Part shown: in pieces, positions 1,359-6,491 of the stretch
Layout of the letters: each line of letters begins with the position of its first letter
Numbering within the stretch: position 1 is the first letter of the stretch
Assembly (NCBI GenBank): GCA_946480525.1
Contig: CAMLLA010000217.1
Coordinates: 1-7,158 of the forward strand
DNA: 7,158 nucleotides
Source of the DNA: an uncultured Asticcacaulis sp.
Lineage (GTDB): Bacteria; Pseudomonadota; Alphaproteobacteria; Caulobacterales; Caulobacteraceae
Direction: 5' to 3'
The notes under the pieces: model-generated
The model's input: only the letters and a program-made list of their open reading frames with translations
Database searches by the model: none
What the model was told of the DNA's origin: nothing
Program-made: the position numbers and the translations under genes

Positions 1359-3596
1359 ATGAAATCGCTCGTATCCATCCTGGCCATAGCGGCCGCGCTT
1401 ACCGCCGCGCCCAACCTGGTCATGGCGCAGAACGACGGCGCCGTTGTCATCAAGGGCGTCAAGCGCGTCCGGCCACCCGCCGACGCCCCCCTGCCCGCGC
1501 TCGACATGTTCGTGAAACCGGCGCGGATCGAGCGCATCGCCCTGTCGGACGACGGCTCGCAGGTCGCCTTCACGACCCATGTCGACGGCAGCCATCTGCT
1601 GGCGCTTTACGATATAGCCACCGGAGCCAAGCGGGCGATCAAGCTCCAGGACGAGCCGCTGTCCCAGATCCGCTTCATTGGCAATACCCACCTGATGATC
1701 GCCCATACCCACACGGGTCTGCGCAGCACCTGCGCCAACGGCACGAACCAGCAGGCGCAAAACGGCTTCAACTCGATGGCGCAGCGCCCGGCCACGGACC
1801 TCAAGACTCCCAATAACGGCCCGGGTTCCGGCGTTGCCGCCGTCGAAGCCGCTCTGGCCTTCTCGGCGCTCAGCCGGCTGCAATCGCCGGCCTGCGTCAA
1901 CTACGGCACCATGGCGATCAGCGCGATCGTCGTCGTCGATCTCAAGACCGAGACCGCCACCCAGATCGGCTTTGGCCTGAGCGAATATCACCACGCCGCC
2001 CTGAACCTGCCCGTCACGATCGACAATGGCGGCAGGCCGGAGCTTATGGGCGGCTTCCTGGAACTGCGCGGCGAGTCGATGAACCGTCAGCCGACCCAGC
2101 GCGCCTATCTGTGGCGCGTCGACCCGGCGACCGGCGCGGGCAAGATGATCGACGACGGCGGCGGCGATCTCGACCGCGAATTCCGCTTTCCCGACGACTG
2201 GCTGATCGGCCCGGACGGCGCCGTTCTCGCGCGCACCCTGTATCAGTACGGCACCCAGACCTTTTCCATCCAGGTCAGGGATGGCAAAAAGTGGAAGCCG
2301 ATCCTGTCGCGTAAGGTGGCCCGGAATCTCGACGCCTTCGCACCGCAGATGGCCGGCCTGGGGCGGGATGGCCGCGCCATTCTGATCATCGACCGCGACG
2401 CGGACGGCGTCTACCGCTACCACGAAGTGTCACCCGAAGGCGCGCTGTCCCCGGCGCTCAATCCCGGCGACGCCACCACCGACCGGCCGATCTTCCATCC
2501 GCAGACCAAGAGACTTGCCGGCTTCGTGAGCCAGAAGGAAATGCCGGCCTACACCTTCTTCGACGCCGGGATGGCCAAGGTCTATGCCGCCGCCCAGGAT
2601 GCCGCTCCCGGCCAGGCCGTCAGGGTCGTGGCCATGGCGAACGATCCACGCAAGCTGATACTGTCGACCCACGGCGACGTCGAAGCCGGCAACTACTACT
2701 TTCTCAACCTGACGGATGGCAGCTATGTCGATCTTGGCAACGACCATGCCGCCGTCCCGGCCGAATGGATCGCCCGCCAGTCCGCGATCAGCTACAAGAG
2801 CCGCGATGGACAGGATATCCAGGCCATCCTCACCCTGCCGTCCAAGCCGCTGGACGAAAACCTTCCGATCGTCGTCCTGCCGCATGACGGCCCGGATGGC
2901 CATGACGCGCTGGGCTTCGACTGGCTGGCGCAATCGATCGCCTCGCGCGGCTTCGCGGTCCTGCAACCCAACTATCGCGGCTCGAACAATGCCGGCCCCG
3001 CCTTTACCGCCGCCGGCGATGGCCAGTGGGGAGGCGGCATGCTGAATGACATGGCCGATGGCGTACGCTACCTGGCCGAGGAAGGGATCGGCGACGCCAA
3101 ACGCGCCTGTATCGTCGGTAAGGGGTACGGTGGCTATGCCGCCCTGTCCGGCGCCGTTTCGGGCGACAATACCTACCGCTGCGCGGTGTCGATCGGCGGA
3201 ATTTCCGATGTCGCCGAATACAGGAGCTGGTACTCGGAGCACCGCTCGCGGCCCGACCCGGACGAACTGGGAGCCCTGGAACCCGACACGGCTTATCCGC
3301 GCGCCTTCAAGGTTACGGAAAAGTCCTATGTGCGGCTGAAACGCCGTCTGGGGACGGCCGACCTTGCCGCCATATCGCCGGTTAACAAGGCCGATAGCGC
3401 CGTGCCGACCCTGCTGATCCATCCGGAGGCCGACAGGGAAGTCCCGACGCAGCAAAGCCGCATCATGCGCGATGCCGGCAAGGGCCGGATCCAGTACCTG
3501 CAGCTGACCGACTGCGATCACGACCTGACGACCGAAACCTGCCGCCTGCAAGCGGCTCAGGCCGTGACGGATTTTCTGCTGAAGTACAACCCATAG
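1359..3596 (+). CDS. Exported S9 (prolyl oligopeptidase/DPP4-like) family protein lacking the catalytic serine
   Basis: Encodes 745 residues from ATG 1359, 6 nt after GGGGGA; the frame is open further upstream (ATG 1182), but that part overlaps the SRPBCC gene and lacks a signal peptide. Residues 1-23 form a Sec signal peptide with a likely cleavage at VMA|QN, placing the protein in the periplasm. Residues about 45-480 are strand-rich, as in the S9 beta-propeller, with an insert around 125-180 bracketed by Cys125 and Cys179. Residues about 490-745 are the alpha/beta-hydrolase domain: PHDGP at 508-512 (family HGGP), NYRGS at 538-542 with the oxyanion Tyr539, QWGGGM, then IVGKGYGGYAAL. Active S9 members have G-x-S-Y-G-G here; residue 589 is Gly (GGG at 3123-3125). 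Asp692 (HPEADREVP) and His721 (DCDHDL) keep the expected positions. Length and motif order are normal for the family and the frame is intact, so it is probably a folded but inactive peptidase homologue that acts by binding. Active enzymes of the family cleave short peptides. Confidence 0.88.
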   Translation: MKSLVSILAIAAALTAAPNLVMAQNDGAVVIKGVKRVRPPADAPLPALDMFVKPARIERIALSDDGSQVAFTTHVDGSHLLALYDIATGAKRAIKLQDEPLSQIRFIGNTHLMIAHTHTGLRSTCANGTNQQAQNGFNSMAQRPATDLKTPNNGPGSGVAAVEAALAFSALSRLQSPACVNYGTMAISAIVVVDLKTETATQIGFGLSEYHHAALNLPVTIDNGGRPELMGGFLELRGESMNRQPTQRAYLWRVDPATGAGKMIDDGGGDLDREFRFPDDWLIGPDGAVLARTLYQYGTQTFSIQVRDGKKWKPILSRKVARNLDAFAPQMAGLGRDGRAILIIDRDADGVYRYHEVSPEGALSPALNPGDATTDRPIFHPQTKRLAGFVSQKEMPAYTFFDAGMAKVYAAAQDAAPGQAVRVVAMANDPRKLILSTHGDVEAGNYYFLNLTDGSYVDLGNDHAAVPAEWIARQSAISYKSRDGQDIQAILTLPSKPLDENLPIVVLPHDGPDGHDALGFDWLAQSIASRGFAVLQPNYRGSNNAGPAFTAAGDGQWGGGMLNDMADGVRYLAEEGIGDAKRACIVGKGYGGYAALSGAVSGDNTYRCAVSIGGISDVAEYRSWYSEHRSRPDPDELGALEPDTAYPRAFKVTEKSYVRLKRRLGTADLAAISPVNKADSAVPTLLIHPEADREVPTQQSRIMRDAGKGRIQYLQLTDCDHDLTTETCRLQAAQAVTDFLLKYNP

Positions 3597-3691: not shown

Positions 3692-3744
3692 CCGATGGGC
3701 GACGGTGTGCGTTCGCGTAAGTCTTGGACAGGCGGACCACGTAT

Positions 3745-5055
3745 ATGACAGCTCGTGACGACGTTATCATGCCCGCATCGCCAAGCTATGCGCCTGCGGC
3801 GCGCCCGACGCTGGACGATGTGATCGTCACCGAACGGCTCTATGAGCGGCCAAGCCGTCCTGCCGATTTCAAGCTGGAAAACCAGGCGTTGACGGCGCTG
3901 ATCGAAGTCATGAGCCAGGCGCCGGACGTCGTATTGCAAAAGCTGGCGGACACCGCCCTGTCCCTGTGCAACGCCGGGTCCGCGGGAATCAGCATCGCCG
4001 AAACGGACGGGCCGGAAGGCGTCTTCCGCTGGCACGCCACCGCGGGCCATTACACACGGTACCTCGGCGGCACCATGCCGCGCCATTTCAGCCCGTGCGG
4101 CGCCGTGCTCGAACGCGACGCGCCGTTGCTCATGGTCAACATGGTCAGGTATTACGACTACGTCTCGGTTCTGGACGCCCCGCCCCACGAAGTTCTGCTC
4201 GTCCCGTTCTACAGCAGGGGCGAGGCCATCGGCACACTGTGGGTCGTCGCCCACGACGGCACGCGCCAGTTCGACCGGGAAGACCTGCGCATCCTTCAGT
4301 CGCTGACGAACTTTGCCTCCATGGCGGTGCAGGCCTTCGCCAGGACGCACGAGCTGGAGCGCGCCAATCTCGCGGCGCGTGATGCCGGGGAACTGCGCGA
4401 ACACTTCATTGCCGTGCTGGGCCACGACCTCCGCAACCCACTCGGCGCCATCGCCAACAGCGCGGCCCTCCTGGAACGCGGCGTCCCCGCCGAACGCCTG
4501 CAGTCCATCGGGCACATTGTCGGCCAATCGGCACGAAGGATCGGCGAGCTGATCGACAACCTCCTCGACTTCACCCGGGGCCGTCTGGGCGGTGGCATCC
4601 AGGTCAATCGCACCCGTCTGCAAACGCTCGAGCCAGCCCTGAACGACGTCGTGACTGAACTGCGCACGGCCCATCCCGGCCACGCCATCGAAAGCCGGTT
4701 CCGCTTCACGGCCCCGGTTGCCGCCGATCCCAACCGCATCGCCCAGATGGTGTCGAACCTTCTGGCCAACGCCCTCATCCACGGCGACCCGGCAAAACCC
4801 ATCCGGGTCGAAGGCAGCTGCGATGTCGACATGCTGCGCATATCGGTCGCCAACGGCGGCCAGCCCATCCCTTCCGAGGTCATGTCCAAGCTGTTCAAAC
4901 CTTTCGAACGCGGCACCAAGAACGGCGATCGCGAAGGGCTGGGGCTGGGCCTGTACATCTGCTCGGAAATCGCCAGGGCGCATGGCGGCGAACTGACCGT
5001 CACCTCGACTGGCGAGGAAACCGTCTTCCGCTTCCTGATGCCGCAGGGCAATTGA
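3745..5055 (+). CDS. Soluble GAF-domain sensor histidine kinase
   Basis: Encodes 436 residues from ATG 3745, with AGGCGGA 8 nt upstream; the frame also has a TTG at 3724 and an ATG at 3769 with poorer sites. There is no signal peptide or membrane helix, so it is cytoplasmic. Residues about 44-195 are a GAF sensor domain containing the PRHFSPCG stretch with Cys118; its ligand cannot be told. A helical linker (about 198-218) leads to the HisKA dimerisation domain, with phospho-acceptor His227 in HDLRNPL. The HATPase domain shows the N box (NLLANALIHGD, Asn338 and Asn342), a G1 box VANGGQPIP (Asn370 in place of the usual Asp), an F box LFKPFERG and a G2 box GLGLGL at 398-403. All core elements are present, so it should autophosphorylate on His. 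No receiver-domain protein is in the window, so its partner is unknown. It follows the S9-like gene after 148 bp and precedes the TPR regulator by 128 bp on the same strand. Confidence 0.9.
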   Translation: MTARDDVIMPASPSYAPAARPTLDDVIVTERLYERPSRPADFKLENQALTALIEVMSQAPDVVLQKLADTALSLCNAGSAGISIAETDGPEGVFRWHATAGHYTRYLGGTMPRHFSPCGAVLERDAPLLMVNMVRYYDYVSVLDAPPHEVLLVPFYSRGEAIGTLWVVAHDGTRQFDREDLRILQSLTNFASMAVQAFARTHELERANLAARDAGELREHFIAVLGHDLRNPLGAIANSAALLERGVPAERLQSIGHIVGQSARRIGELIDNLLDFTRGRLGGGIQVNRTRLQTLEPALNDVVTELRTAHPGHAIESRFRFTAPVAADPNRIAQMVSNLLANALIHGDPAKPIRVEGSCDVDMLRISVANGGQPIPSEVMSKLFKPFERGTKNGDREGLGLGLYICSEIARAHGGELTVTSTGEETVFRFLMPQGN

Positions 5056-5183: not shown

Positions 5184-6491
5184 GTGCCAACCAATCGGTT
5201 AGACGGGTGGAAGTCCATCGGGGCGCACTTCGGGCGCGACCGCACGACGGTCATGCGCTGGGCGCGCGAACGCGGCCTGCCGGTCAAGCGCATTCCCGGT
5301 GGCAAGACCGGCACCGTCTACGCCGTAAAGGAAGAGCTCGACCGCTGGGCCGCCAGCCAGTCGAACCTGAGCGACGACGCTCCGGCAAGTCCAGCCGCCC
5401 TTCACCTGACCTCCCGGCATATGTGGATCGCCGGCATGGCCGCGGCACTTATTCTGACGGTGACCATCTTCGTGCTGGTCGTGACCGGGCATCCCGCCCG
5501 CTCATCGGTCGCCCTGCCGTCCGATCCCGCGGTCGCGGCCACCTATCTCAAGGCGCGCGACGACTGGGCAGCGCGCACACCGGAACGGCTGAAGGCCGCG
5601 ATAGCGGGTTTCGAAACCACGACGCGTCGCGATCCGGACTTCGCGCCCGGCTGGTCCGGGCTGGCCGACGCCTATCTGCTGTCGCGTGAATTCGGCGCCA
5701 TGGCGGACGCGGACGCCTTTCCGAAAGCAAACGCCGCCGCCGGGCGGGCCCTGGCGCTCGAGCCCGGCCTTGCCGGCGCGCATCGGGCGCAAGGCTTCAT
5801 CCTCTACTGGTGGGAAGGCCGGCCGGCAGAGGCCGGACGGGCCTTCCGCCGGGCCCTGGAGCTCGATCCGTCATCCGCCCAGACCCACTTCTGGTACGGC
5901 AATATCCTGGTCGACAACGGCCAGCATGTCGCCGCACAAAAGGAACTCAATGCCGCGCGCCTGATCGAACCGGGGTCGATCGCCATTCAGACCGACCTGG
6001 CGTGGGCGCGCTGGTCTGCGGGCGACACGGACGGCGCACGCACTGCCCTGACGGATCTCGTCCGCAACTATCCCGGCTTCGCCACCATTCACGACTGCCT
6101 GTCCGTCACTGCCCTGGCCGATGGCGACTATGTCGGCTACGTCGAGTCCTTAAGCGAATACGGCCGTCTGCGTCAGGATGCCTATCTTGCCGCCGATACG
6201 GCCGAACTGAGAGAGGCGCTGAAGGTCGGCGCAACCGACGTGCAGCGCCTTCTGATGGCGCGTGCGATGGACGAGATCAAGGCCGGCACGCGACGCACGC
6301 ACCTGTGGCCGGTCTTCCTGGCGTCGGTCGCCCAGGACCGCCGGCAAACGCTAAGGCTTCTCCAGGCAGCCGAAGCGCGCCGCGAGGTGTGGGGCCAGGC
6401 CGGCATTACCGCCCGCATCATCCGGCTGTGGACGGGCGACGAAGACATCATCCAGCTGGTGCGCCGGCGCAAGGCCGCGTCGGTGATCTAA
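5184..6491 (+). CDS. Membrane-bound one-component regulator: HTH, one TM helix, periplasmic TPR domain
   Basis: Encodes 435 residues from GTG 5184, with GGGAGG (5170-5175) 8 nt upstream; the nearby ATG at 5179 is in another frame and stops after seven codons. Residues 6-57 are a winged-helix DNA-binding domain of the excisionase/MerR-like kind: LDGWKSIGAHFGRDRTTVMRWARERGLPV, then a wing around PGGKTGTVYAV and the closing ELDRW. Residues 58-78 are a polar linker. Residues 80-101 are a single membrane helix, so the HTH is cytoplasmic and the rest periplasmic. Residues about 133-299 form about five TPR-like helix pairs; the clearest carry AFRRALELDP (220-229) and the LEP, LDP and IEP turns at 192, 227 and 261. 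The remainder is helical without a clear motif. The architecture parallels ToxR/CadC regulators, which bind DNA from the membrane in response to periplasmic signals. TPRs bind proteins or peptides, so the signal may be another protein. Targets are unknown; its own promoter and the exported gene downstream are candidates. Confidence 0.85.
   Translation: MPTNRLDGWKSIGAHFGRDRTTVMRWARERGLPVKRIPGGKTGTVYAVKEELDRWAASQSNLSDDAPASPAALHLTSRHMWIAGMAAALILTVTIFVLVVTGHPARSSVALPSDPAVAATYLKARDDWAARTPERLKAAIAGFETTTRRDPDFAPGWSGLADAYLLSREFGAMADADAFPKANAAAGRALALEPGLAGAHRAQGFILYWWEGRPAEAGRAFRRALELDPSSAQTHFWYGNILVDNGQHVAAQKELNAARLIEPGSIAIQTDLAWARWSAGDTDGARTALTDLVRNYPGFATIHDCLSVTALADGDYVGYVESLSEYGRLRQDAYLAADTAELREALKVGATDVQRLLMARAMDEIKAGTRRTHLWPVFLASVAQDRRQTLRLLQAAEARREVWGQAGITARIIRLWTGDEDIIQLVRRRKAASVI

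Follow-up and report, generated by a model that had tools for sequence, protein, structure and literature searches.

What becomes of a serine peptidase fold when a whole family has given up the serine? This question is raised by a 7,158-nucleotide stretch of DNA from an uncultured Asticcacaulis sp. (contig CAMLLA010000217.1; the whole stretch is called the window), whose only long S9 gene lies on the forward strand at 1359..3596 (745 residues, stop codon at 3594-3596) and reads from 1359 to 3593 as one uninterrupted frame. Residues 520-743 (2916..3587) match the Peptidase_S9 alpha/beta-hydrolase domain (Pfam PF00326, 2.9e-29), with a profile score of 102.5 bits against a gathering score of 22.6. 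In the nucleophile elbow, GKGYGG (residues 587-592, 3117..3134; wider stretch CIVGKGYGGYAAL), Gly589 (GGG, 3123-3125) stands where active S9 enzymes have the Ser of G-x-S-x-G-G. The triad Asp and His of active enzymes are both present, as Asp692 (3432..3434) and His721 (3519..3521). An earlier sequence-only reading had described this combination; frame, Pfam and alignment bear out the substitution, and the two kept residues align with the S9 triad positions. We propose that the product is a stand-alone, probably exported S9 pseudo-peptidase of the acylaminoacyl type that binds a peptide-like ligand without cutting it, an account that we consider fairly probable.

Does the glycine belong to one protein or to a family? 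A protein search with the window protein gave 53 matches from about 8,000 scored candidates. Clade A, which comprises the window protein and P0002-P0037 (41-94% identity to the window protein), carries only Asticcacaulis among the organism names given by the sources, and of the 25 Asticcacaulis genomes searched, ten have it (G001, G004, G005, G007, G010, G011, G017, G022, G023 and G024). Gly stands at 589 in 36 of its 37 rows, window included, so the clade of GKGYGG-like proteins that the sequence-only reading had suggested looking for does exist; the exception, P0037, is a broken plasmid copy with no alignable letters at that position. Among 35 clade A proteins, the triad Asp is kept in 34 and the triad His in 33. 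Lys588, to which meaning had been attached, carries no weight, since members of the clade differ widely in the residue before Gly (K, R, Q, S, A, N, M, I, V, E, L). The clade A copies L053 and L055-L057 (G024) are cut at contig ends.

The family is also maintained. P0002, from a 94% identical cluster in European Nucleotide Archive data, reads GRGYGG, which argues against a read error, as the earlier reading had done. Clade A uses GGG, GGC or GGT for Gly589 and GAC or GAT for Asp510, a second altered residue described below; the amino acids are thus held while the codons drift. The Ser paralogues of the genus use TCC in 20 of 21 cases and TCA in one, and if the ancestor was alike, the step from Ser to Gly needed at least two base substitutions, which gives wider support to the minimum first counted from the window codon. 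By the Nei-Gojobori method, the ratio of nonsynonymous to synonymous substitution rates (dN/dS) is 0.146 for the window protein against A. solisilvae and 0.091 for G005 against G007. It lies between 0.09 and 0.34 in seven of the eight pairs tried and between 0.11 and 0.30 over the catalytic domain in all eight; one pair, L053/L056, is partial, and dS comes close to saturation in several cases. Over its full length the eighth pair, L044/L054, gives an unreliable 0.40, because the frame of L054 is out of register upstream. Purifying selection is therefore visible in the seven usable pairs, and, judged from the sequences, Gly589 in clade A is neither sequencing error nor decay.

Is the elbow the only part of the active site that has changed? 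We set the 35 clade A proteins against 21 Ser paralogues of the genus (L003, L004, L006, L022-L036, L041, L098 and L110; mostly 38-43% identity over the matched part), which are nearest to clade A on the tree; they were picked by the motif G.SYGGYA and are Ser by construction, with odd paralogues such as L005 left out. Of 93 positions that are conserved within both groups, six carry a different fixed residue in each (231, 304, 372, 510, 539 and 589). Position 510 (GAC, 2886-2888) is Asp in 35/35 clade A proteins and Gly in 21/21 Ser paralogues, turning the oxyanion-loop motif from HGGP into HDGP (2883..2894), a change that is absent from the earlier observations; His509, Gly511 and Pro512 of the acylaminoacyl-type motif are retained. 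Asp510 is the sole new acidic residue among the six differences, and no Ser, Thr or Cys has been gained at these positions as a replacement nucleophile. When the comparison is widened to 137 catalytic domains, the 510 place holds Asp in 56 of 69 Gly rows, compared with none of 67 Ser rows (two gapped); the remaining row is L005, with an insertion in the elbow. The pairing of Gly589 with Asp510 in these alignments is striking, but few independent events lie behind it. HGGP is described as the oxyanion-hole glycine motif of acylpeptide hydrolases (PMC3360023), and in the mammalian enzyme one loop glycine donates its NH to the oxyanion, while slight movements of the loop alter reactivity (PMC12514842). 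Another of the six positions, Tyr539 (2973..2975), had been listed as kept alongside Asp692 and His721; it is not a kept catalytic residue, as Phe stands there in 19 of the 21 Ser paralogues and Tyr in the other two. In clade A, 33 of 35 proteins have Tyr, and the closest relative, P0002, has Phe. L005 itself (L058:12193-14130), a tandem S9 paralogue of A. solisilvae with a one-residue elbow insertion (GWSAYGGYA) and HGAA for HGGP, is possibly, from its sequence, a third kind of altered S9.

Did this state arise once? We scanned 398 Caulobacterales genomes with a DNA pattern for GxG[YF]GG[YF]AA, which misses members with other flanking letters. It matched 28 of them, of which 23 have the match in an S9 frame and five are chance hits. 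Nineteen similar loci (L060-L078) were found, of which 17 were placed in a tree (L067 and L074 left out), and all 17 fall in a second family, clade B. A protein search with a clade B member scored about 8,000 candidates and gave 6,425 matches; the clade B counts refer to the 120 of these that were listed, of which every eighth and P0189 entered the tree. Named matches include Terricaulis, Vitreimonas and metagenome-assembled genomes of Hyphomonadaceae. The nucleophile position is Gly in 116 of 120 and the 510 position Asp in 73, whereas the triad His position reads His in two, Arg in 68 and Ala in 36; 112 have a lipoprotein-like N-terminus by a loose pattern. The joint occurrence of Asp510 with Arg at the His position (49/23/17/27, Fisher p 0.0035) ignores kinship and is suggestive only. 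The tree, built with the trait columns removed and holding 21 rows of clade A and 33 of clade B, recovers each as a single branch (Shimodaira-Hasegawa-like approximate likelihood ratio test, 99 and 98), far apart. Forcing them together costs 142 log units (p 9.2e-5 in the approximately unbiased test, which was picked after the tree was seen). A joint origin being rejected, the Gly state arose at least twice, and the tree requires at least seven Gly/Ser changes. Among 385 Alphaproteobacteria sampled, the pattern occurred in six, of which only A. solisilvae is an S9 case; the other five (L089-L093) are not S9.

Clade B (loci L060-L078 and L124-L131) is a large lipoprotein-like pseudo-S9 family that nearly always lacks both Ser and His. 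Its gene adjoins one gene family in all eight loci fetched from the 19, and the two members of that family that were checked are the carbamoyl-phosphate synthase small chain (carA) by Pfam; in L129 and L130, two of the eight loci, the frame of the clade B gene is shortened. Single Gly S9 proteins outside both clades are P0038, L083 (G047) and L081 (G383).

On the evidence of the alignments, then, clade A combines a clade-wide Gly589 and Asp510 with a triad Asp and His that few members have lost; it is under purifying selection, and the Gly state had another, separate origin in other Caulobacterales. What the protein does beyond losing the standard mechanism we infer as follows. With no elbow Ser, the normal acyl-enzyme would be unable to form, and a carboxylate in the charge-stabilising oxyanion loop would oppose the normal chemistry; thus, a peptide or N-blocked peptide-like ligand would be held uncut in the cavity between propeller and hydrolase domain. 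The protein may then act in the periplasm by binding, by sequestering or buffering, or by sensing. DPP10 is a precedent for an S9 scaffold that is kept without cutting. The sequence-only reading had ended on a binding or scaffold protein; its maintained S9 homologue without a nucleophile stands, and the binding role is one that we, too, only infer.

Several observations weigh against this account. An independent-pairs test of the coupling of Gly with Asp falls short of significance (median p 0.5), having two informative pairs at most, and the six fixed differences do not cluster significantly at the active site (p 0.084, for a list of sites drawn up after the fact). The presence of clade A in only ten of the 25 genomes shows that it is dispensable; G017 has it only as a copy split between reading frames (L054), and another genome holds a further such copy (L052). 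Neighbouring genes differ between clade A copies. Ser is found in two of the listed clade B matches, and P0160 and P0189 of clade B have Ser present and His absent. Finally, pure binding would not need the His and Asp that clade A keeps, yet DPP10 keeps both.

We consider other possibilities in the following. First, the protein may join Ser S9 paralogues of its own cell in mixed oligomers, as a partner subunit or as a regulator, which we regard as possible but unlikely. S9 acylaminoacyl peptidases do oligomerise, and among the S9 loci that were read at the motif, Ser turned up in 19 of the 25 Asticcacaulis genomes, including four of the ten clade A genomes (G001, G007, G010 and G024); in A. 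solisilvae, the Ser paralogues are arranged in tandem. However, a survey by simple gene calling around 18 clade A copies, in stretches of 7-18 kb, some cut by contig ends, called no second S9 gene, and all 25 genomes have some S9 match whereas only 10 have clade A.

Second, the protein may still be an enzyme, in which Asp510, His721 and Asp692 form a set and the oxyanion-loop carboxylate serves as nucleophile or general base; this is doubtful. Chemistry is kept in play by His721, which 33 of 35 clade A proteins retain although clade B shed it (2/120 listed), and Asp510 is the one new acidic residue, shared by all 35. Against this, 72 of the 120 listed clade B matches have Asp with Gly and no His, so that the Asp there is independent of His, and DPP10 is described as inactive despite its kept His and Asp (PMC4350108). 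A bolder form, to which we give a still smaller chance, would have the nucleophile of clade A relocated from the elbow to Asp510, so that a bound ester or peptide undergoes a novel reaction, clade B having taken the same two steps and then abandoned catalysis.

Third, the clade A protein may feed an adjacent chemotaxis or sensor protein. The clade A gene is followed on its own strand by a chemoreceptor gene in G005 and G007 (dCache and MCPsignal by Pfam), as well as in Asticcacaulis sp. DW145 and A. excentricus CB 48, both of which have a beta-galactosidase gene next; a GAF-histidine kinase gene lies downstream in the window. The chemoreceptor cases probably go back to a single ancestral gene order, however, and other copies adjoin GH43, enolase, MurJ, Dus or other genes, which makes this idea very improbable. 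Last, decay or sequencing error, for which the split copies L052 and L054 could speak, is scarcely credible in view of the clade-wide Gly, the dN/dS well below 1 and the long open frames.

The neighbourhoods themselves are varied: apart from the clade A gene, no family occurs in more than 4 of the 18. A fixed partner in sugar degradation was considered and rejected, as genes for glycoside hydrolases (GH35, GH43, GH31, GH53), arabinofuranosidase and fucosidase lie near several copies only; the idea that the neighbours are always signalling proteins failed too, since enolase, MurJ, Dus, M14 and alcohol dehydrogenase are found among them as well. In the window, the gene is followed on the same strand by a GAF-HisKA-HATPase sensor kinase (3724-5052) and by a protein with a weak HTH_17 match and tetratricopeptide (TPR) repeats (5184-6488). 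The clade A genes of A. excentricus CB 48 and Asticcacaulis sp. DW145 (L132 and L133) are plasmid-borne.

At the N-terminus of the window protein a probable signal peptide, MKSLVSILAIAAALTAAPNLVMA followed by Q, was recognised by eye (1359..1427, forward strand); residues 1-25 of the predicted model have a predicted local distance difference test score (pLDDT) below 50. An alternative upstream start at 1182 would give 804 residues; the ATG at 1359 yields a signal-peptide-like N-terminus and a length equal to that of P0002 (745 residues). The model (pLDDT 84) has a propeller and an alpha/beta-hydrolase domain, and S9 structures align with it over residues 42-745. In the propeller, a stretch at 1719..1898 (forward strand) has ends peculiar to clade A (residues 121-125 and 174-180), including Cys125 (1731-1733) and Cys179 (1893-1895), which may form a disulfide in a region of low model confidence; both cysteines are present in 35/35 clade A proteins and 0/21 Ser paralogues. 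NCBIfam gave only matches far under cut-off for these proteins, including Dpp5; P0009 scored 59 of 400 bits against a lasso-peptide isopeptidase model.

Judged by alignment and tree, the window protein is a member of one of two bacterial S9 families that reached a state without the nucleophile separately, and the two lineages offer a natural repeat experiment on why a peptidase scaffold persists after this loss. Both families are labelled as serine peptidases in public annotation, clade B entries too carrying peptidase names. The CB 48 and DW145 entries are annotated as 'prolyl oligopeptidase family serine peptidase' with the term proteolysis, which is probably wrong; the G007 copy, read at the motif, has Gly. 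We suggest GxG[YF]GG together with HDGP as a sequence flag for S9 proteins unlikely to be ordinary peptidases. Because A. excentricus CB 48, a named strain from pond water, has a copy (ASTEX_RS18075), the family is open to experiment.

How does the protein compare with known systems? Literature searches turned up no description of a Gly-S9 family in bacteria, and the letters GKGYGG appear in one of the papers searched, that on the DPP10 structure. Among S9 non-peptidases, the animal proteins DPP6 and DPP10 are known best; like the window protein with its Gly589, they have a residue other than Ser at the nucleophile position. In the part of PMC4350108 available, human DPP10 (S9B) has Gly651 in GKGYGG, with His and Asp kept and hydrogen-bonded, and is inactive even after Gly is changed to Ser; the window protein shares the Ser-to-Gly elbow, the GKGYGG letters, the kept His and Asp, and the propeller with an alpha/beta-hydrolase domain, while that part makes no mention of an oxyanion-loop Asp for DPP10. 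The shared Lys is probably coincidence, given the variable preceding residue in clade A. DPP10 is a type II membrane protein in potassium-channel complexes, whereas the window protein is bacterial and probably exported. By fold it also appears nearer to acylaminoacyl peptidases; both fold and sequence profile rank these enzymes above DPP4. The acylaminoacyl peptidase of A. pernix (S9C; 3o4h, 1ve6) is active, with Ser and HGGP, and has 18-22% identity to the window protein over the aligned part. The Ser paralogues of the genus differ from clade A in their motif-selected Ser, in HGGP and in the missing Cys125/Cys179 pair. Clade B resembles clade A in its elbow Gly and, in many of the matches listed, in the oxyanion-loop Asp, but it differs in the His that is nearly always lost, the lipoprotein-like start, the carA-family neighbour and its separate origin.
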